Source: Bryobacterales bacterium
GTDB taxonomy: Bacteria > Acidobacteriota > Terriglobia > Bryobacterales > Bryobacteraceae
Length of the DNA: 64,000 bases
Assembly: GCA_947446025.1 (NCBI GenBank)
Contig: CANFEY010000010.1
Location: 1-64,000, forward strand
Direction: 5' to 3'
Part shown: piece by piece, positions 2,966-59,312 of the stretch
Numbering within the stretch: the stretch's first letter is position 1
Layout: every line of letters starts with the position of its first letter
Notes under the pieces: generated by a model
What the model was told of the DNA's origin: nothing
Seen by the model: the letters and a program-made list of their open reading frames with translations, nothing else
Database searches by the model: none
Made by a program: the position numbers and the translations under genes

Positions 2966-4695
2966 TATTTCTTGGGAAGCGCGAACACGTAGAGGGAGTT
3001 GGCGCCCTTGGGTGGATTGACGCCCGGGGCGTAGCGGACTACGCTGCCGGTCAGGAGGCCGTCACCGGTCAGGACGGCGACGTATTGCTGGCCGTTCACG
3101 GCGTAGGTAATGGTGCTGTTTGCGATGGGGCCGCCGATCTTTTGTTCCCACAGGACCTTGCCGCTGGCTGCGTCGAGGGCGCGGAAGTTGCGGTCCAGGT
3201 CGCCGAAGAAGAGCAGGTCACCGGCGGTGAGCAGCATGGCTCCGTTGATGGGCGCGGGGCCTTTGAAGATGTGGTCGATTTTGCCGGTGGCGGCGTTGAT
3301 TTTGGAAACGCCGGAGAATTCGTTGGGTTTGGAGGGGTCGCGGACCACGCCGTCGTGGGCGGAGCGCGTGTTCAGGTCCTTGGTGTGGACGCTGTTGCAG
3401 GTGTCGACGAAGGGGACATAGAGCGAGTTGGTGATGGGGCTGTAGCCCTGCGCCCAGTAGCTGCGGGTGTTGAAGAAGCAGACGATGCGGTCCTGGTTCG
3501 GGCCGGTGAACAGCAGGCTCTCATTGAGGTAGACCAGGCCGTTTTCGTCGATGTTCTTGATGAAGAAGTTCGGCACGTCGTAGGGCCAGGGGTTGGCCCA
3601 CAGGAACTCGCCGGTGTGTTTGTCGAGCGCGAAGACGCCGCCGGGTTCGCCGGTGGCCAGCACGATATCGCGGCGCTCACCGGGTTTGATTTTCTTGTTG
3701 AACCACTTGGCGGTGGCCGCGGTGGGATTGAGCGTGGTGCTGACCAGGGTGCGGTCATTGGTCCAATCTTCATCCCAGTCATCGCCGGGGAGGTGTTGGT
3801 AATACCACTTGAGCTTGCCGGTGTCGGCATCGATGGCGATGGTCGAGTCGCTGTAGAGGTCCATGGGGCCGTGATTGGGGAGGTCCTGATACTTCCCGCC
3901 GTGGCGTTCCGCTCGGCTGTTTGGAGTAGGATTGGCAACGCCCCATATGATGGCGTTGGTGGCCGGGTCGTAGGTGCCGCCTAGGCCCCAGGTGGCGGCG
4001 GTGCGCTTATCGTCGGGCGTGTCGCCCCAGGTGTCGCCGCCGGGTTCGCCGGTTCTTGCGGCGGTGTAGAACTTCCACAGCAGCTTGCCGGTCTTGGCGT
4101 CGTGCGCTGAGAGGTAGCAGCTGGCGGCGTTGGCGCAGGTGCCTCCGGAGATCACTTTGTTGCCCGCGATCACCGCGCCTTGCGATTGGCCGCGCGCATC
4201 GGTTTTCGCTTCCCAGCGGATCTCTCCGGTCTTGGCGTCGAGCGCGACCACGGCGTCGGGAGCGGTCCAGTAGATCATGTCTTCGCTCATGGCGATGGTC
4301 TTGGCCTTGGCCGCAGTCTTCTGGTTAGCGGGGACGTTGCGTGTGTATTCCCAGAGAAGATTGCCGTTGGTGGCGTCGAGCGCCTGCACCGCCGCGCCGG
4401 GAACTTGAAGATACATCACGCCGTCATGCACCAGCGGGATGGTTTCCTGCGACCCTGCAGCTTGTTGGCGCGACCATGCCATGCGCAGGTCGCCGACGTT
4501 GCCTTTGTTGATTTGGGTCAGCGGGGAGAAGCGCTGCGAATCGTAGGTGCGGTTATACATCAGCCAGTCATTGGGGCTGGGATTCTTGAGCATCTCCTCG
4601 GTGACAGGCTTGAAGGTACGCCCGCCCTGGCCGAGAAGGAAGACAGCGGGAAGGATCGCCGCGCCGCAGAGTGTCGCGAAGGTTGTGGCTTTCAT
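2965..4695 (-). CDS. PQQ-dependent alcohol dehydrogenase-type quinoprotein
   Basis: A 576-residue secreted quinoprotein of the methanol/ethanol dehydrogenase beta-propeller family. Several tryptophan-docking-type blades are visible, such as ALDAKTGEIRWEAKT, AHDAKTGKLLWKFYT, AIDADTGKLKWYYQH and ALDKHTGEFLWAN. The segment GDDWDEDW (about 300-307) lies where active-site residues usually fall. A signal peptide covers about residues 1-22. The fused cytochrome c domain of some alcohol dehydrogenases is absent, so a separate electron acceptor is needed. PQQ binding and alcohol oxidation are inferred from the family; the substrate is unknown. No PQQ biosynthesis genes are in the window. It forms an operon with the cyclase gene downstream. 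Confidence 0.85.
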   Translation of the reverse strand: MKATTFATLCGAAILPAVFLLGQGGRTFKPVTEEMLKNPSPNDWLMYNRTYDSQRFSPLTQINKGNVGDLRMAWSRQQAAGSQETIPLVHDGVMYLQVPGAAVQALDATNGNLLWEYTRNVPANQKTAAKAKTIAMSEDMIYWTAPDAVVALDAKTGEIRWEAKTDARGQSQGAVIAGNKVISGGTCANAASCYLSAHDAKTGKLLWKFYTAARTGEPGGDTWGDTPDDKRTAATWGLGGTYDPATNAIIWGVANPTPNSRAERHGGKYQDLPNHGPMDLYSDSTIAIDADTGKLKWYYQHLPGDDWDEDWTNDRTLVSTTLNPTAATAKWFNKKIKPGERRDIVLATGEPGGVFALDKHTGEFLWANPWPYDVPNFFIKNIDENGLVYLNESLLFTGPNQDRIVCFFNTRSYWAQGYSPITNSLYVPFVDTCNSVHTKDLNTRSAHDGVVRDPSKPNEFSGVSKINAATGKIDHIFKGPAPINGAMLLTAGDLLFFGDLDRNFRALDAASGKVLWEQKIGGPIANSTITYAVNGQQYVAVLTGDGLLTGSVVRYAPGVNPPKGANSLYVFALPKK

Positions 4696-50674: not shown

Positions 50675-50749
50675 GGCCAGGTAGCTCAGTGGTAGAGCGC
50701 GGCCCTGAAAAGGCCGGCGTCGGCGGTTCAATCCCGTCCCTGGCCACCA
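50675..50749 (+). tRNA. tRNA-Phe (GAA)
   Basis: A complete cloverleaf with acceptor stem GGCCAGG/CCTGGCC, D-arm GCTCAGTGGTAGAGC, anticodon stem CGGCC/GGCCG with loop CTGAAAA (anticodon GAA), a five-base variable region, T-arm GGCGGTTCAATCCCGTC and encoded CCA (50747-50749). It sits next to an integrase gene, so its 3' end is a probable integration site. Confidence 0.93.
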
Positions 50750-50785
50750 CTTTTCAATAACTTACAGACCACGAAATCCAAAGAT

Positions 50786-50822
50786 GGTTGCAATTGGTTG
50801 CACTTCGGAACGTTCTGCAACC
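50786..50822. repeat. short repeats beside the integrase, possible arm-type sites
   Basis: GGTTGCA occurs at 50786-50792 and again at 50796-50802, and its complement TGCAACC at 50816-50822. The two direct copies are spaced 10 bases apart, one helical turn, as arm-type integrase sites often are. In addition ACCACTTTTC at 50746-50755, spanning the end of the tRNA, recurs at 50820-50829. Confidence 0.5.
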
Positions 50823-50846
50823 ACTTTTCCCTACCCAAAACGTACT

Positions 50847-52019
50847 TCACTGCACTGCTCCTGACCGCTGTACGTACGCGCTCAATCGGCCTACCGCACG
50901 CCGCTGCGACTCAGGCACCATCTGTTGGTAGATGTCCTGCGTCGTCGACGCGCGGCTGTGTCTGAGAAGTCCCTGCGCGTCTTTCACGTCGACTCCGGAT
51001 TGCTGGAGCCAGGTCGCACAAGACCGCCGCAGTACTTGCCAGTTCACCCAGCCGATGCCGAGCTTCCTTCCCGCTGGCTTGATATGCCGCGAGAGGATCG
51101 TGTTGTCACTCATCGGTGCTCCTGTCTTCACAGACTGAAACACCAAGTCTTCCGGACCATCAGACTTCACGACACGGTAATGTCGCAGAGCCCGCCCCGC
51201 GCGCACAACCACCTCTTTGGATTTCATCGCATGAATCCGTTCGATCACATGCTCGTCCACGGAGATCGTTGCCCTGCTGGAATCCGACTTGGGTTCATCC
51301 CAATCCCCACGACTGTAGCGTTCCTCAACGGTGATCGAGGCTACTCCTACACATCGCCACTTCAGGCCAGCCAGTTCGCTGACCCTCAGTCCCGTGAACG
51401 CTGCCACATAGACCATCGTGGCGTAGGGTTCTGGGAGGGAATCCACCAAAGCGAAGAACTCCCCGATTCGTAAGAAAGGCTTCGGCTTATTGAGCCGCCG
51501 CTTCTTCAAACGAATCTTGGCCATCGGATTGGTGACCAGGCGGTTGAAGTCCACCGCCGCGCCCAGCACTGCCGACATGACGTCCCGAATCTTGTCGAGG
51601 CTCTCCGCTGAAAGAGGTGTCCGGTGCAACCGGGCGAAATAATTTTGCGCTCGCTCCACCGTAATCTCCCGCAGCATCAAGTCCCCGAATTCAGGATTCA
51701 GGTGCACCTTCAGCACGCTCTTACTCCGCTTCTGGGTATTCATGCTCCAAGTTGACAACACATCGCGTTCGTAGATCTTGGCGAAGTCTCTGAACAAGAC
51801 TGCCCCTCCGATACCGGTTGCGGGCTGGTTGATCGCTGCGAGGTAATCGTCGCGCAACCGTTCCGCTTCAGCCTTGGTGAGGCTAGCCGGTCCCAGAGGG
51901 ACTCGTTTCATCTTTCGAGTTCTTCGCCCATTGCTTCCCTGCTGGTCCTCGCGTACGAGAACCACCCACTGCTTGCCTCGCCGTTTGGGCGAGGGCTTCT
52001 GATACCTTCTACGAGCCAT
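50847..52019 (-). CDS. tyrosine-type site-specific integrase
   Basis: A 390-residue integrase with an N-terminal basic arm (MARRRYQKPSPKRRGKQW), a core-binding domain (TWSMNTQKRSKSVLKVHLNP) and a catalytic domain. Catalytic residues: Arg in VAAFTGLRVSELAGLKW, an Arg in VLRRSCATWLQQ (the usual His of H-x-x-R is Gln), His-Arg in LLRHSRASTTQDIYQQM with the tyrosine Y. The element is integrated at or near tRNA-Phe (97 bases away). The ATG at 52019 is chosen, with AAGGAGG upstream though rather far; a longer frame extends to 52154. Confidence 0.85.
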   Translation of the reverse strand: MARRRYQKPSPKRRGKQWVVLVREDQQGSNGRRTRKMKRVPLGPASLTKAEAERLRDDYLAAINQPATGIGGAVLFRDFAKIYERDVLSTWSMNTQKRSKSVLKVHLNPEFGDLMLREITVERAQNYFARLHRTPLSAESLDKIRDVMSAVLGAAVDFNRLVTNPMAKIRLKKRRLNKPKPFLRIGEFFALVDSLPEPYATMVYVAAFTGLRVSELAGLKWRCVGVASITVEERYSRGDWDEPKSDSSRATISVDEHVIERIHAMKSKEVVVRAGRALRHYRVVKSDGPEDLVFQSVKTGAPMSDNTILSRHIKPAGRKLGIGWVNWQVLRRSCATWLQQSGVDVKDAQGLLRHSRASTTQDIYQQMVPESQRRAVGRLSAYVQRSGAVQ

Positions 52020-52175
52020 CGATTCATAGCCGCCTCCTTGCGGCAATGGCTCGCTCGAGATTTGCTCGACTGGAAGGGTATCACAGTCGGATTGGGGCGG
52101 CGCTTTCACTGCAGCTAGTTTGCTCCGATCCGGACCCCTAAAATAGGGAGACAAGGCCGTTTGTAAAGGAGCCTG

Positions 52176-52853
52176 ATGCCCCCATCTCCGCTTAAGCTGT
52201 TGGATGCTTTATTCGCCACCGTTGCCCGCAAAACGAAGCCGATGCCCTTTCGCGAGGGGGCGGCCACCGCACGTTACCTAAGCAACCTGGCCTACGAAAT
52301 GTCGCCGGGTCCGGAGCGCGAGCGAATCTTGCGGCTTTCCGAAATCGTTTGGGGGCGCGTATTCCAGTTTGCCGAGTTTCGTACAGCGGGCAAGGAAGAG
52401 GCAATCCAGCTCCTTGAGGAGTTTTCCAAGACGCATTTGGTGAAGTACCACATGCCGGTCTTAATCGAGAGCGTACGCGCTGCCCCTGCGCCCAAGCCAT
52501 ATCAGGCCAAACCAGTTCTGGCTTCGCCGCTAATGGCCGTCACGATGGGCCCAGGGTCAAAGCGCCTGCCGGACGACCTGACAGAGCGGATCTACGCAGG
52601 CTACTGGGCGCTCAGGTTCGGCAAAGTAGCCAATGCTCGCAGGCACGTTGCTGAGGCCCTACAACGAGCCGACATTCCTCGCGAAGGGCACCTCGGAGAC
52701 CAAGACTGGACGAGTTACGATGTGGGCGAACGTCTCAAGCAGTACGACGCCACGACTCCGAAGGCCCCGGATGCCCGGAAAGAACACCGCCAAGGGCTGG
52801 TCGAGAAATGGCAACTGCTCTGCGCAGGGGTCCGCGTTCCCCCGCGTCCGTGA
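52176..52853 (+). CDS. hypothetical protein of the integrated element
   Basis: A 225-residue soluble protein with no recognised domain: a helical N-terminal region (about 1-80), a proline- and alanine-rich middle (about 100-125), and a C-terminal helical region (about 135-215). It is divergent from the integrase, 156 bases from its proposed start. It could be an accessory cargo gene. Nothing indicates enzymatic function. Confidence 0.55.
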   Translation: MPPSPLKLLDALFATVARKTKPMPFREGAATARYLSNLAYEMSPGPERERILRLSEIVWGRVFQFAEFRTAGKEEAIQLLEEFSKTHLVKYHMPVLIESVRAAPAPKPYQAKPVLASPLMAVTMGPGSKRLPDDLTERIYAGYWALRFGKVANARRHVAEALQRADIPREGHLGDQDWTSYDVGERLKQYDATTPKAPDARKEHRQGLVEKWQLLCAGVRVPPRP

Positions 52854-53147
52854 ATCGAAGCCCGGGAACCCCGGAATTTCCCGTGCGGACAAACTACTCT
52901 TCTATTAGATTAGATCTTACGCGCTCGGCGTGACTTTCCGAGAATACGGATGTTCCTTTGAATCTTGCGGTTGCGAGCTGGAAGATCTTGCGGGATTTAA
53001 TTGGGTTTTGCGGTTTTCATGCCTTCACGTATTTTCTTCGCTCTGAACGCTGGTGTGGCGACGTAACTCTCTTCCTCAGAACGAGGACATTTTGCCCCCG
53101 ACAACCCGTTACCGGATGGAGAACGTGAGGCACGGTCGATTGTGTGA
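52854..53147. other. AT-richer intergenic DNA before the IS21 fragment
   Basis: Nearly 300 bases with no plausible gene. The first part (about 52900-53030) is noticeably richer in A and T than the rest of the window, suggesting DNA of foreign origin. It grades into a transposase remnant from about 53148. No tRNA, hairpin or insertion-sequence end was recognised. Confidence 0.4.
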
Positions 53148-53408
53148 CCGGTTTGCCGCGCTCGCGGCTGCGCAGGTGCGAGGCCACCCGTGTGCCTTTA
53201 TGTAGGATCTCGACGATGGTGGGCGTCGAGCGGATCTCTACTAGTTCATGCACCAGGTTGTACGGCACGCTGTAGAAGTTCGCATCGAAGGCTACGTGAT
53301 AATCGATGTTGACGCGGGCGCGCGACCACTCGCTCAGGTCGAACGGCTCCAGCGGCAGAGGCTTTAGCGCGGGCTTGTCGAGGGCTTCGTCCCGGAACGA
53401 TTTTCGCG
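53148..53408 (-). pseudogene. IS21-family transposase (IstA) fragment
   Basis: On the minus strand the sequence reads KSFRDEALDKPALKPLPLEP, FDLSEWSRARVNIDYHVAF and YSVPYNLVHELVEIRSTPTI, continuing VEILHKGTRVASHLRSRERG. This is the C-terminal part of IstA. The rest of the transposase, the istB helper gene and terminal repeats are absent, and the reading frame breaks at both ends. The flanking 53409-53659 shows no recognisable gene. This is an old, inactive remnant. Confidence 0.85.
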
Positions 53409-53659
53409 TTCACCCCGGAATCCCGTTCGCCTTGCCCCGGAATCCCCACTTCCTGCCAAGACCACCCCAACGAAGATCGTCTTGCCCGATGCGTCCGTAG
53501 TGGCACAAGTTTCTGCACCGTCAAGCAACTCGTCGAAGGTCGCTTTGTTCCAGTCCCTTTTCCGGGGACAGGAAGACGTTATGCCGAGCGTGTTCGGGTT
53601 AAGAGTGGCACTTGGATCTACTGTCCGGCTGGCGGAAAATGGTTGCTCTCAACTCGCGA

Positions 53660-56600
53660 TCAGCGGGCGGTGGTTTTGAAGAGCGACTCCAAGGGAACGT
53701 CGATGGTTTGGATGTGACCGCGGGCAAACGCTTCTCGCTTGTCCTCGCGATCATCGCGAAGCAGCCTCTGCCGGAGCCGTGTCTCGAATCGTGCCAGTTG
53801 TTGTTCGATGTCGTCCTTGGCGTTTTCCCGAGCGACGATATCCTCGCGATATCTCTTCAGGAAATAGTCAATTGTCTCGATGCGAATCTTGATCGAGCCG
53901 GATGGCTTGTTCTCGTCGATATCCTTGAAGCAAAAGTAGGGTGTAGAAGATTGCTCCACGATCTCTTCGACTACCGTATAAATTGGAGCGTCATGCCCAC
54001 ATTTGAAGCTGGACAGTTCCAGAGCCACCAGGTTGGGATGGCGCGCGACGTACTTGGCCGCCCAGACCTTGCGTGAGGTGTTTTCGCTATAAGAGTTCTT
54101 CCATACGTCGTCGATGGAGAGGCCATTCGGAATCTCCCCCGCCTGGATCTCTTCTCCAAATAGCCGCGATAGAACGTCGTCGTCGAACGGGAGCGAATCC
54201 TGAGTGAAGATCGGATAGCCTAGGATCTGTAGCTCCTCCAGTATCCCGTGGTTCACGCCTGGATCGTTGTGATAAGGCCGCCCCAGCAAGACGATCCCGA
54301 TGTGCTTCTCCCGCTCCAGATCGTTCAGAACGTCCCGGCCGCGCTGCCGAAGACGTGCCTCGTAACGGTGCAGATTCTCATAGCCAGCCTGGACGGCGCG
54401 GTGATTCTCTTCGGCAGAGAGGCCAAGGATGTCTTGGAATTCCTCTAGCAATTGCCGCTCGAGGAGTTCGGGTTTGGAGACGTTGACGAACGTATCCAGG
54501 TAACGGATGCCCTTCTCGGCGAACAAATCCCCCTCTTTGGTGAACGCTGCTTTCACCGCTGCCGGGGTTGCGGAGACTGTGGGACAGGCGCGGTTCCCCT
54601 GGGTTCCGCTCAGCATGGTGGGCATGCAATCGATCATCGGGAAGAAGATCAGATCCAGCGGCTTTCGGGCGTGTGCGGTCATCAGCAGGTTGTGGACATG
54701 CGGAATTCCGAGCTTGGAAGGAAAACAGGGGTCCACTGCGCCGCGCTTGCAGCCGTCTTTATACAACTGTTCGCTGGTGTAATCCGACCAGATGATGTTC
54801 TCCGCCTTGATGCCAAGGGAAACCAGGTACCCGCTGAAAAGGGGAGCCAGGGAATATAGATTTAGAACCCTGGGAATACCGATGCGAAGGCTAGCCCGTT
54901 TGCGCATCTTTGCCGCGCGGGATTTTTGAGCGGAAGTCCACTGAACCCGCGATTCAGGATCGGCGACCAGGGGAGGGTCGGGCCGGCGGAACACCTCGAT
55001 GGCCGCGTACTCGGCGAGATTGGGGTGCATGACCTTGACGTTATCTACGGTGCCCTTAATCCGGCGCATCTCACTGGTATCTTCCACCGTGCCTTTTTCG
55101 CAAGTGGCGATGATGAAGCGCTGCGCACCCTCGGCTAGAGGAACTTTCGTGGAACGCGCAGGTTGGATGGTGGCAACGATATTGGTCTTGACGTCGACGA
55201 ATGTGCGCAAGCATTCGTTCTTGCAGAAGTAGCAACGCGTTTCTTCTGTTCGCGTGGTGGAGTACGCCAGATTCGCCACTGCTTCCAGTCCAATGAACGT
55301 GGAAGCGCGGCCTCTATCAAACAACCGGCCCGCCTCAATGGCGGCACCGATCGCCCCTGCTTCCCCGCAATGCTCATGCACTATGACGGAAGGCGGGACC
55401 AAACCGACGAAGCGAGAGCGGATATAGTCTACCTGCGCTTTCACCGCTGCCAGATTGCGCTGTGTGCCGCCCTGCAAGAGAAAGCGGCTGCCCAGGGCCG
55501 AAAGGTTCGGGATTTGCGCAATGTACAGCCAGATGTTCTTCGGCAGCACACGACAAAGTCCGGCCATGATTTCTTCCGGTTTCCAGCCCTGACGCTGGAA
55601 GTCGACGATATCGGACTGCATGAACACCGCGCATCCGTAGCCGAACTCCGGCAATCGGCTGGCCGAAAACGCCCTATCCGCGTACTGTTCCACCGGCACA
55701 CGAAACGTCTCGGCGGTCGATTGCAGGAAGTAGCCGTTCCCTGCGGAACACTGCGTGTTGAGTTTAAAGTCCTTCACGCGGCCGTCCTTCAAGACGATGA
55801 TCTTGATGTCCTGGCCGCCGACATCGCAGATGACGTCGACGTCCTTGTAGAAATGCAGACCTGCCTTCGTGTGAGCGACGGTCTCAACCAGTGCAACGTC
55901 GGCTGAGAGCACATCCTTCAGCATGTCTTTCGCATACCCGGTGGTTCCTACGCCCAGGATCTTGAGCGTTACGCCTTGTACGCGGATCGAACTCTCCAGC
56001 TTCTTCAGGACCTTAATCGTGTCATCGATGGGGTTGCCTTGCGACAACTGATACACCTTGGCGAGAATCCGCCGGGGATGACTCTTGGAAAATAATACCG
56101 CTTTGGTGGAGGTGGAGCCGCCGTCGATTCCAACGAATCCTTCAATGGCCGCACCGCGAGAGAAGACGGCTGGCACAAAGGCCTTTTCCCGATACTCGGT
56201 CTTGAATGAATCGAGTTCCGCCTGACTGCCCGCAAGATTGAGCGGCGTATTGCGTCCGCGCCCATTGGATGGCGTCGCTTCTTCGGTCTTGCCGGGGGTG
56301 TCACGGGCGCGCTCGATCTGATCCGCAAGCGCATGCCAACCGCGGTACGCCCCGACGCTTTCGTCTTCAGACTTCCCATATTCCACGGCTCCGATGGCCG
56401 CGAAGTACTGCGCGTTTTCAGGAACGCGAATCAAAGTAGCCGGATCCACGCCGAAAGGGAGAGGCGTATTGCGCTCAGCCCAAATCTTGGGGATATTGGC
56501 GCGCCACGAATCCTGCATGCCACGGATGTATGTGTTGGGGCCGCCGAGCAGCAGCACCACGGGACGGAGCGTATGCCTCGTGTCAACACCGAAAGGTTTT

Positions 56601-56811
56601 GCATGACGATGGCTTCAAACAGGGACGCCATCAATTCTTCCGGAGGGACTCCCAGTTTTTGCAAACCATTAATGTCCGTCTCCGCGAAAACACCGCATTT
56701 TCCGGCCACCGGGTGAAGCTTGACGCCGTGATAGCCCATCTGGCAAAGCTGATCCGGCGGAATGCACAGGTTTCCAACGCACTCTACAAATGCACGCCCG
56801 ACGCCACTCAT
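53660..56811 (-). pseudogene. truncated and frameshifted BadF/BcrA-type acyl-CoA dehydratase activase (DUF2229)
   Basis: A large activase related to 2-hydroxyacyl-CoA dehydratase activators, with a DUF2229 C-terminal part. From 56811 one frame encodes FVECVGNLCIPPDQLCQMGY then HPVAGKCGVFAETDING and stops making family sequence near 56570; a one-base loss there shifts it to the frame 56560-53660 (966 residues), which starts VLLLGGPNTYIRGM. That frame contains a second ATPase domain with GFVGIDGGSTSTKAVLFSKS, DVGGQDIKIIVLKDG and TQCSAGNGYFLQ, and later PRVLNLYSLAPLFSGYL. The N-terminal ATPase half is missing beyond 56811. Probably inactive. Confidence 0.85.
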
Positions 56812-57101
56812 TGGCAGGCTCCCCAGTGGACCTTAGTAGGAGTAGGTATGTGTCTTGAAATCAGCGCTCTACCGATGCACGCCAACCCCGCCGCAATGCG
56901 GGGCGAACGATACGTAGTACCGATTTGGGACTGGTTTGCCATCTCCGATTTCCAACTTGAACCATCCGTCCCCGAACGGGATCGGAAAAACCCAAGAACT
57001 TTAGGCTCAGTTTGAGATTAAAGGGAAGAGGTGGGCTTCGTACCTCGACGAATCACCCTAGGTGGAGGGAATAAACTGCGGATGCTTGTAACGGGGGACC
57101 C
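56812..57101. other. intergenic DNA upstream of the truncated activase
   Basis: About 290 bases with no supported gene. The activase sequence ends abruptly at about 56811, and a stop (TAA in the activase frame) lies just beyond, marking a deletion or rearrangement end. A plus-strand frame across the region has no family features. A short GC hairpin (CCCCGC/GCGGGG near 56888-56905) is present without a T run. Confidence 0.4.
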
Positions 57102-57263
57102 TTAGTCCTGACCGCGTCTAAGGACTACCAGAAGTGTCTTTAGGGCGAATACCGCAAGGATGATCCAGGTGACCCAGAGGAACTCGCGGTCCAGCGTCCG
57201 CCAGGCAGCGAAGGCGAGGACGGCGTAGAGCGCCACGGCGGTTAGGAACTGGGGGTCTTTCAT
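57102..57263 (-). CDS. small membrane protein
   Basis: A 53-residue protein starting MKDPQFLTAVALYAVLAFAA, with two closely spaced membrane helices (about 8-22 and 28-48) and a short basic tail ending RRGQD. Codon use resembles neighbouring genes, with G or C in most third positions. It starts 25 bases after the TonB-like gene's stop, so it may be the end of that operon. No family recognised. Confidence 0.5.
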   Translation of the reverse strand: MKDPQFLTAVALYAVLAFAAWRTLDREFLWVTWIILAVFALKTLLVVLRRGQD

Positions 57264-57288
57264 GGGAGCTCGACGGGCTGAAGCCTGT

Positions 57289-58278
57289 CTACCTCGCCCT
57301 CGGGACGTTGTAGGAGAACGCGAGTTGCAGGCGGATCTCAGTGCCTCGGTATTCGTTGGGCAGGCTGGGAAACGGGTTGGAGGCGCTGACGCTGGCTACG
57401 GCGGCCTGATCGAAAGCGACAGTGCCGGAGGTGTTGGCGATCACTAGCTTGGGGACCTGACCCCGGCGGTCGATGGAGAATTGCAGTACTACGATGCCCT
57501 GGCGGCCGGTGCGCGCGATTTGGGGAATCACGGCGAACCACTGTTTGCGCACCATGTTGAGCACCTGCAACATGTAGGGCTTGAAGTCGAAGTTGAGCGG
57601 GTCACTCAGCAGTTGCATGTTGCCGACGGAGGTGGGGTCGCCGTTATCGCCGTCGGAGAACACGCCTCCGCCACCGCCGCCGGGTTGCTTGGTTGCCTTG
57701 GCCATTTCGCCGGGCAGGGCTTTGGGGGCCTTCAGGGTCGGATTCGGGGAGGGGTTGCCGATGGGCGCAGGAGCGACATTCTCCAGCGACAGCTTGGGTT
57801 GCTCAAACGGGCGCGGCACGTTCTGGACGCCGGTCAAGCCGGCTATTTCGGGGGCGTCGATCACCACCTCGACATTTGGGGCGGAGAGCGCGGGGGTGGG
57901 AGAAGGGGGCTGGTTCAACGGTCCGGTGGGGGCGGGGGGACGGAAACTGCGCGGGGCGGGCTTGGCCTCCAGCGCGCTGCGCACGTCCAATTCATGCGTG
58001 ACCTTACCCTGATTGGGATTCTTCTGCGTGAGCTCCTGCAGGCGCGGCGCTACAATCTTGACAGCCTGCCGGGGGTCGAATTGCACGCGCACGGTGTTGC
58101 GGAACTTGTAGTCGGAGTGCGGCATCAGCAGGAATACGAGGAGCGCGCAGATGTGGAACCCGACGGAAAAGATCGCAGCTCGGCTGAGGCGGGCAGCGGT
58201 AACAGGTTCGCGTCCGCCCCCTTGTGTACCAAGGATGCTGGCGAATTCTACTCGTTCGTTATGGGGTGCCCGGGACAT
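57289..58278 (-). CDS. TonB-like energy transducer protein
   Basis: A 329-residue protein with a single N-terminal membrane helix (about 32-52), a Pro-rich periplasmic linker (about 110-200, including a run of glycines) and a C-terminal TonB-type domain: YMLQVLNMVRKQWFAVIPQI (about 235-254), RQGIVVLQFSIDRRGQVPKL (about 260-279) and NEYRGTEIRLQLAFSYN. It would carry energy from the inner membrane to outer-membrane transporters, needing ExbB/ExbD, which are not in the window. It overlaps the upstream oxidoreductase gene by 20 bases. Confidence 0.82.
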   Translation of the reverse strand: MSRAPHNERVEFASILGTQGGGREPVTAARLSRAAIFSVGFHICALLVFLLMPHSDYKFRNTVRVQFDPRQAVKIVAPRLQELTQKNPNQGKVTHELDVRSALEAKPAPRSFRPPAPTGPLNQPPSPTPALSAPNVEVVIDAPEIAGLTGVQNVPRPFEQPKLSLENVAPAPIGNPSPNPTLKAPKALPGEMAKATKQPGGGGGGVFSDGDNGDPTSVGNMQLLSDPLNFDFKPYMLQVLNMVRKQWFAVIPQIARTGRQGIVVLQFSIDRRGQVPKLVIANTSGTVAFDQAAVASVSASNPFPSLPNEYRGTEIRLQLAFSYNVPRAR

Positions 58279-59215
58279 GGAGGGCGACTAGTTTCGAATG
58301 CTCTTCAATCTTATCAAGAATGGCCAGCGCTACCTTCAAGGCGTCCAAGGCGGCCTTTCCGGTTACGCGCGGCTGCTGGCGGGTGCGGATGCATTCAAAG
58401 AAGTTCTCCAGTTCCAGACGGAGCGGCTCGGATTTCATCGCGGCCAGGGGCGCGAAGCTGACGCTGCGGTTGGCGTCGACGGAGAACCGTGCCCCATCCT
58501 GGCGGCTGTAGTCGAGCGAGATGTACTCGCGGGGCTGGAATAGGCGCAGCTTGCGGATGCGTTCGGTGGAGATGCGGCTAGCGGTCATGTTGGCAACGCA
58601 GCCTCCGGGGAACTGCAGACGCACGTTGGCAATGTCGACTTTTTCGGACATCACGTGGATGCCGGCGGCGCGGATTTCATCGGGCATCACGCCGACCAGA
58701 GAGAGCACGACGTCCAAATCGTGAATCATGAGGTCCAGCACCACGTCCACATCGAGGCTGCGGGGGCTGAACTCGCTCATACGGTGGATTTCGAAGAACA
58801 ACGGCGTCGAGACCACTTTGGCCAGCGCGGTGACGGCGGGGTTGAAGCGTTCGAGGTGTCCGACTTGAAGGATGCGGCCGGTGCGGGCGGCCGTGTCAAT
58901 CAGGGCCTGACCGGCGGCCTCGTCGTGCGCGATGGGTTTTTCGACGAGAACGTCGCAGCCGAGTTCCATCAGCCGACAGCCGAACTCGGCGTGGGTAATG
59001 GTGGGCGTGGCAATCACGGCGGCGTCGGAGGCTGCGGCAACTTCTTCCAGCGTGCCGAACACCGGGCAACCGCGCTCATCGGCGGCGGCCTGCGCGCGGG
59101 TTGGGTCGGAGTCCAGAATGCCGGAAAGTTGGACGTCCGCCGCTTCGTGGATGATGCGGATGTGGTTCTTACCGAAGGCTCCGGCGCCTAGGACTGCGAT
59201 GCGGGGTTGCGACAT
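58259..59215 (-). CDS. Gfo/Idh/MocA family oxidoreductase
   Basis: A 318-residue NAD(P)-dependent dehydrogenase. The Rossmann motif is IAVLGAGAFGKNHIRII near the N-terminus and the characteristic lysine is in DVLVEKPIAHDEAAG (about residues 88-102), followed by GRILQVGHLERFNPAV. The C-terminal sheet domain contains LDVDVVLDLMIHDLDVVLSL, with conserved His and Asp. Members oxidise sugars or nucleotide sugars; similar proteins act on UDP-GlcNAc in lipid A synthesis, but no such neighbour is seen. ATG 59215 is preferred to an earlier TTG. Confidence 0.85.
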   Translation of the reverse strand: MSQPRIAVLGAGAFGKNHIRIIHEAADVQLSGILDSDPTRAQAAADERGCPVFGTLEEVAAASDAAVIATPTITHAEFGCRLMELGCDVLVEKPIAHDEAAGQALIDTAARTGRILQVGHLERFNPAVTALAKVVSTPLFFEIHRMSEFSPRSLDVDVVLDLMIHDLDVVLSLVGVMPDEIRAAGIHVMSEKVDIANVRLQFPGGCVANMTASRISTERIRKLRLFQPREYISLDYSRQDGARFSVDANRSVSFAPLAAMKSEPLRLELENFFECIRTRQQPRVTGKAALDALKVALAILDKIEEHSKLVALHVPGTP

Positions 59216-59240
59216 GCTCAACTTATGAGGCTAACATCCC

Positions 59241-59312
59241 TGTAGCTGAGCTTGGAAGCTCGCCTGTAGCTGCGCTTAGAAGCTAGCCTGCAGCTGAGCT
59301 TGGAAGCTAGGC
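59241..59312. repeat. three tandem copies of a 24-bp repeat at the 3' end of the kinase gene
   Basis: Three imperfect copies (59241-59264, 59265-59288, 59289-59312). The first contains TGTAGCTGAGCTTGGAAGCT; the others differ by one to four bases. The unit has internal symmetry (AGCTgagcttggAAGCT), so it may fold as a hairpin. It covers the kinase stop codon (59307-59309) and the short gap before the Gfo/Idh/MocA gene. Confidence 0.85.

Follow-up and report, generated by a model that had tools for sequence, protein, structure and literature searches.

Putative left end of an integrative element at tRNA-Phe in a Bryobacterales genome

Integration centred on the tRNA anticodon, with restoration of the tRNA gene and displacement of a tRNA fragment, is already established, and the Islander report places 2083 islands at the anticodon-centred tRNA subsite and 1836 at the T-stem region (PMC4383910). 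Mycobacteriophage integrases are described as using a 30-45 bp tRNA common core flanked by pairs of arm-type sites (PMC10865867), and the account of mobile genes in Candidatus Solibacter speaks of many integrase genes, candidate islands with tRNA genes and no intact prophage (PMC3174227). Here, we analyze 64,000 nucleotides (nt) of a Bryobacterales bacterium (assembly GCA_947446025.1, contig CANFEY010000010.1, positions 1 to 64,000; the whole stretch is referred to as the window), in which positions 50,675 to 53,659 hold a tRNA-Phe gene, a tyrosine recombinase (integrase) gene, a divergent gene and a transposase fragment. This region is very probably the left end of an integrative element, that is, the side of its left attachment site (attL), because it combines a repeat pair with an open integrase gene and because the same layout is found at tRNA-Phe in relatives. 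The locus appears to be an ordinary truncated tRNA-associated element, with one half lost and an open integrase gene. Genomes, loci and contigs are labelled G, L and C, respectively; G000 is the window's own genome, G024 a sister genome and G178 a congener. The features of the left end are as follows.

50675..50749, plus strand: tRNA-Phe(GAA) gene; from about 50702 onward (GCCCTGAAAAGG... to CCA) it would correspond to the element-borne core that makes attL, an extent read from the 3' halves present in relatives and in viral contigs.
50750..50773, plus strand: conserved stretch 3' of tRNA-Phe, CTTTTCAATAACTTACAG..., alignable in G178, L103 and L106.
50785..50803, plus strand: putative arm-type direct repeat TGGTTGCAATTGGTTGCAC (GGTTGCA twice, period 10).
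50816..50822, minus strand: inverted GGTTGCA (TGCAACC on the plus strand).
50847..52019, minus strand: tyrosine recombinase (integrase) gene, about 390 amino acids (aa); the open reading frame (ORF) spans 50847-52154.

As in Islander-type islands, a tyrosine integrase gene stands here beside an intact tRNA gene with the element on the 3' side, and in the relatives of the window the core likewise extends from the anticodon arm through to the 3' end of the tRNA; the locus differs in that G000 lacks the displaced tRNA fragment which that method requires, only attL being left. With an integrase beside an intact tRNA and no displaced fragment found on the same replicon in the G000 draft, the region is classed only as the left end of a tRNA-integrated island. 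The likeness to mycobacteriophages lies in a core that includes the tRNA 3' half and in repeat pairs on both sides of it, as in the viral locus L317 (see below), and the difference in the hosts and in the integrase itself, the 8 phage records listed, of 406 matching ones, being 25.7% identical to the window integrase and all 406 less than 60% identical.

The order of tRNA-Phe, integrase and a divergent gene without family match, as read in the first-pass annotation from the letters alone, was confirmed by tRNA detection and Pfam searches. The tRNA-Phe gene is the sole tRNA detected within the window, and the integrase gene is convergent with it. The protein matches Phage_integrase (PF00589; expectation value [E] 2.4e-15) and Phage_int_SAM_3 (E 2.2e-7) in Pfam and phrog_1 integrases in PHROGs (E 6.4e-59), and its start is likely the Met at 52019, judging from alignment with relatives. 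The residues R, K, R, H and Y, which we take to be the catalytic ones, are kept in the alignment, as in a tyrosine recombinase; the first His of what we presume to be the HxxR box is substituted in 11 of 11 aligned sequences and is thus a family trait and not damage. The integrase of G178 is 71% identical, lies about 90 nt from its own tRNA-Phe in the same convergent orientation and groups with that of the window in the integrase tree (support 1.000). Between the two genes, nonsynonymous divergence (dN) is 0.214 and synonymous divergence (dS) is 1.60, the latter near saturation, and the resulting dN/dS of about 0.13 shows the mark of a gene under constraint. Given its open frame, its conserved catalytic residues and a dN of 0.21 versus a dS of 1.60, the integrase gene is not decayed and looks functional. 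The first-pass label of a decayed integrative element therefore holds for the truncated element end at tRNA-Phe and fails for the integrase gene, which is itself intact.

Next to the integrase, two GGTTGCA copies start at 50786 and 50796, one helical turn apart as first noticed, with their inverted partner at 50816. No other exact 7-mer pair in the 64 kb has a period of 10 (at least three different letters required), and a looser pattern allowing up to 3 mismatches matched once, at the same site, where chance predicts 0.49 matches. The 18-nt stretch GGTTGCAATTGGTTGCAC (50786-50803) recurs unchanged in G178 at the same position between tRNA-Phe and the convergent integrase; L103 has the GGTTGCA pair at equal distance after its tRNA-Phe 3' half and L106 has the variant GGCTGCAATTGGCTGCA. 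The inverted copy is conserved less than the direct pair. In the stretch directly after the tRNA, CTTACAG recurs in L317 and homology with G024 reaches 50773. Conservation and placement support the GGTTGCA copies as putative arm-type integrase sites. A second recurrence reported in the first pass, that of ACCACTTTTC, is real (copies at 50746 and 50820) and rarer by chance than expected, two or more copies being found in 1 of 100 shuffles; it is nevertheless probably not an att repeat, a rejection grounded in comparison and not in statistics. Inspection shows that the first copy, at the tRNA end, is part of a left-end sequence that varies among relatives (ATTTTC in G178), and that the copy at 50820 is made up of the inverted repeat and the T-rich stretch after it.

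The attachment site is best read from the relatives of the integrase. We examined 16 non-self loci of the family for tRNA sequence, leaving out a 69-residue match on C148 of G170. In 13 (G178, L106, L108, L110, L111, G005, G140, G065, G035 and the viral contigs L315-L318), the integrase end has tRNA-Phe, or a copy of the tRNA 3' half of 45-54 nt, no more than about 165 nt away; the three misses are G066, where the letters of the anticodon arm alone are recognizable by eye, L112, and G090, whose integrase is a broken piece where the contig ends. The copies begin in the anticodon stem (GCCCTGAAAAGGC...) and finish at or near CCA, so that the att core among relatives is a tRNA half of about 48 nt. 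Two layouts occur: (i) the integrase is convergent on the tRNA 3' end (window, G178, L106, L108, L110 and L317), and (ii) the integrase lies upstream of the half and is co-oriented with it (G005, G140, G065, G035, L111, L315, L316 and L318). L317 (positions 4195-4470; IMG/VR UViG_3300035088_000014), part of a 69-kb viral contig, presents in order an arm pair, the 48-nt half, CTTACAG, a second arm pair and the integrase; no full tRNA was found in it, and it reads as an unintegrated (free) attP of the same layout as the window.

Candidate right ends, in which a tRNA-Phe half is preceded by GAGCAAATCCGA...TTGGTTGCA..TTGGTTGCAC, are present in G178, G119 (two), G200 and G024, the last decayed to 28 nt of tRNA with a pair of period 9. 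Partial tRNA-Phe copies number 13, in 8 of the 23 genus genomes; a 77% match on C153 of G200 was not counted, ARAGORN finding no tRNA there. On C98 of G057 and C19 of G076, a full tRNA-Phe gene and a half share a single contig, the arrangement expected of an island in relatives of the window. At L259, near the end of C98 of G057, about 1.4 kb separates tRNA-Phe from the 3' half, and a mini-element is possible there. At L104 (9728-10150; G024 C24), the decayed tRNA-Phe half with its GGTTGCA pair lies about 230 nt from a tRNA-Val piece, with a TTGACAC pair between them; the piece has 46 nt in common with the tRNA-Val gene on C46 of G000, and the stretch looks like the stacked remnants of two elements.

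These arrangements suggest how the locus may have arisen. The element would have carried a tRNA-Phe 3' half of about 48 nt that begins at the anticodon arm and ends with CCA, and the integrase would have recombined this half with tRNA-Phe on the chromosome, the crossover presumably falling in or near the anticodon arm and the integrase presumably binding the GGTTGCA sites. Recombination would have rebuilt tRNA-Phe and left the element on its 3' side. The integrase, the att arms and the divergent gene (orfX) may have arrived together, and the right end and the cargo may later have been removed through deletion, insertion sequence activity and rearrangement.

Beyond the integrase, the following features were distinguished.

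52020..53003, no strand assigned: integrase upstream region and orfX block; 52039-53003 is common with C51 of G024 at 87% identity.
52176..52853, plus strand: orfX, 225 aa, no family assignment, apparently shared recently with the sister genome G024.
53017..53268, minus strand: transposase C-terminal fragment (Mu-transpos_C_2, E 8.5e-9).
53660..56912, minus strand: BadF/DUF2229 gene (53660-56560) and its upstream region.

The block shared with G024 covers the integrase upstream region, orfX and 150 nt beyond, and ends about 20 nt before the integrase start. The orfX gene, divergent from the integrase gene, has no match in Pfam, PADLOC, PHROGs or NCBIfam, and none was confirmed in the viral contigs. 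Its dS versus G024 is 0.21 (183 codons), far below the 0.82-1.63 of 10 core genes in the same genome pair, which is strong evidence that the block moved recently. The transposase fragment, putatively of the IS21 type proposed in the first pass, follows, and so does AT-richer DNA: the guanine-plus-cytosine (GC) content is 0.56-0.60 across the feature and 0.60-0.66 to its left. It remains at 0.53-0.60 rightward up to about 57 kb, however, and low GC therefore marks no right edge. The BadF/DUF2229 gene occurs in 8 of 23 genus genomes, its own included, and was not found in G024 or G210 (all at E 1e-100); it may or may not be part of the element. Similarity of this gene to G151, G193, G201 and G139 runs upstream to 56737-56763, past the ORF start at 56560, so it may be frameshifted. 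DNA colinear with relatives starts again at 56913. Three copies of a 24-nt tandem repeat (59239-59310) stand between the blocks 56913-59236 and 59329 onward, which are on separate contigs in G024, G210 and G178, each in its own conserved surroundings; the two blocks being separate loci in relatives, the repeat copies would mark either a junction specific to G000 or a misassembly.

What kind of element this was can be judged from the cargo of relatives, in which selected ORFs were scanned. G178, the closest relative with a 14-kb interior, has defence-like genes (a GajA-like protein in two ORFs, a GajB-like helicase and PDC-S19); L106 carries a type I restriction-modification system (methylase, specificity and restriction subunits), L111 a type IIG restriction-modification enzyme, and G140 a MobQ relaxase with a TraG-like match below the Pfam cut-off; the neighbours in G065 (L102) look chromosomal by eye. 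The integrase's element class would thus span islands, mobilizable elements and phages. A prophage remnant in place of an island or mobilizable element is the rival that survives best, and we consider it unlikely. It draws on the tRNA half adjoining a family integrase in 4 of 4 viral contigs and on phage genes among the 10 ORFs scanned: portal and head protease (L319), primase (L320), methyltransferase (L321) and RecT-/RecE-like genes (L322). Against it, the nine window ORFs searched in PHROGs (50.8-56.8 kb; small overlapping ORFs were not all scanned) gave no head, packaging or tail genes of temperate phages and matched for the integrase and the transposase fragment alone, and the interior of G178 points to defence. 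No relaxase or conjugation genes were found among the window ORFs scanned with Pfam (seven) or NCBIfam (three). The window thus resembles integrative mobilizable elements and defence islands in that its integrase has relatives near a MobQ relaxase (G140) and restriction or Gabija-like genes (G178, L106 and L111), and differs from them in that none of those genes is among its own scanned ORFs. A genomic island or mobilizable element carrying defence genes is a more likely origin than a complete prophage; judged from G178, we would call the element an island with modest confidence.

The right end has either been lost or was never assembled. The first-pass annotation had found no duplicated tRNA 3' end in the window and had proposed a search of the genome, and the finding extends to the whole G000 draft: the last 26 nt of tRNA-Phe occur once at up to 3 mismatches, the sole other blastn match of tRNA-Phe in G000 is a tRNA-Thr gene on C91, and the best other ungapped match of the 3' half on the window's contig is 28/48, the level of shuffled sequence (26-30 in 30 shuffles). 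The GGTTGCA repeat pair has no second exact copy in G000 either. Without a right end, excision by attL x attR recombination would be impossible from the assembled sequence. Four candidates were rejected. As lost far ends, (i) the 46-nt match on C46 of G000 to the flank of the decayed tRNA-Phe half of G024 is part of a tRNA-Val gene, and (ii) the match on C91 is the tRNA-Thr gene; (iii) a possible second repeat pair on C72 has 3 mismatches, and a reversed control pattern also matched once, which indicates chance; and (iv) the right flank of G210, considered as native flank, has its best matches on non-tRNA-Phe contigs in G000, G024, G178 and G119, so that no common native flank could be set. 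The element might instead be complete in the cell, with its right end on unassembled or unbinned sequence and nothing decayed. This would suit a draft of 120 contigs and the observation that 8 of 102 aligned tRNA-Phe loci end within 2 nt of the tRNA, as if assembly broke at a second copy; yet the G000 contig continues 33 kb beyond tRNA-Phe, the genome is listed as 99.88% complete, and a transposase fragment and displaced core blocks lie within the next 9 kb, all of which makes this explanation improbable.

Several observations weigh against a truncated left end as the reading of this locus: (i) the G000 draft shows no displaced tRNA fragment, the feature that defines a complete island, and the right boundary of the element is undefined; (ii) the five right ends with a GGTTGCA pair had no family integrase in the surrounding stretches searched, so that the motif is what links them to the family, and some of them have neighbouring genes that, by eye, look chromosomal; (iii) orfX is matched in just 2 other genomes among 61 (one at 84%, one weakly at E 1.3e-4), and in G024 it and tRNA-Phe are on separate contigs; and (iv) the integrase has diverged from that of G178 about as core genes have (MnmE, dN 0.176 and dS 1.73; Jag, dN 0.215 and dS 1.63), which fits descent from a common ancestor. 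Vertical inheritance of the integrase, as a gene resident in the lineage, is, this equal divergence notwithstanding, very hard to credit, as other genus members have different integrases or none detected at tRNA-Phe, G024 (the closest sister compared) has a different repeat, GTTCCA, after an identical tRNA, and the family has a patchy distribution among genera and is also met in viral contigs. Uniform gene content at this tRNA in all relatives, which would have spoken against an integrated element, was not found: content differs among them, and the family is at tRNA-Phe in 2 of 16 genus loci, own included (profile search; 2 loci offered less than 350 nt to search). We retain the left end of an integrative element as the preferred reading.

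A wider survey shows a family-wide hotspot at tRNA-Phe, chiefly where the gene has one particular allele of the anticodon arm. Among 111 family genomes, 106 had a tRNA-Phe match; 102 full loci, 20 genus loci included, were aligned, and at least 14 loci whose contig ends within 0.9 kb were left out. Type P (arm CAGCC or CGGCC-CTGAAAA-GGC..) accounts for 79 of the 102 loci and type C (arm GCGGAYTGAAAATCCGC or ACGGACTGAAAATCCGT) for 23; the pair counts exclude 9 type-P loci whose downstream sequence is shorter than 160 nt. At 33 of 70 type-P versus 2 of 23 type-C loci, the 160 nt nearest tRNA-Phe hold an exact 7-mer pair (spacing 10-12); letter shuffles gave 1.34 and 0.52, and a control window 1 kb away had such a pair at 1 of 64 and 0 of 22 loci, respectively. 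The contrast is weaker for spacing 11 alone (19/70 versus 1/23, p 0.02; with 6-mers, p 0.11). Integrase matches within 2.5 kb, detected with a profile that was grown from its own hits and misses families, occurred at 20 of 67 type-P versus 1 of 23 type-C loci (p 0.011); 8 of those 20 have no exact repeat pair, which is thus not universal. A pair (spacing 10-11) or an integrase was present at 40/70 versus 2/23 loci, and by genus, the loci being non-independent, at 22/43 versus 2/15 (p 0.014). Different integrase groups have different repeats (e.g., CGAACA and GTGCCA), and the repeats TTCATTCC and GTTCCA stand at loci with no integrase found nearby. G105 is an exception to the allele contrast: at L304 (7098-8418; C319), two type-P tRNA-Phe halves lie about 1.3 kb apart, and the tRNA-Phe found in that genome is type C. 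None of the titles among the literature matches listed names a tRNA-Phe hotspot in Acidobacteria, from which we claim no absence from print.

We tentatively propose, as a conjecture somewhat more likely to fail than to hold, that in this acidobacterial family several diverged groups of integrases dock at one and the same tRNA-Phe allele, type P (CAGCC or CGGCC-CTGAAAA-GGCTG or GGCCG), many of these groups having a repeat pair of their own with a 10-11-nt period at a characteristic distance, that genes with the GCGGAYTGAAAATCCGC arm are nearly element-free, and that a compensated change in the anticodon stem amounts to heritable immunity to mobile elements.

To conclude, the attachment logic of this element (core, arms and orientation) can be read from its relatives, so that half-lost elements become recognizable without their far end. 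The survey also offers a testable link between anticodon-stem alleles and element load in Acidobacteria; if the proposal is true, a compensated anticodon-stem change would protect its carriers heritably against a whole mobile-element community.

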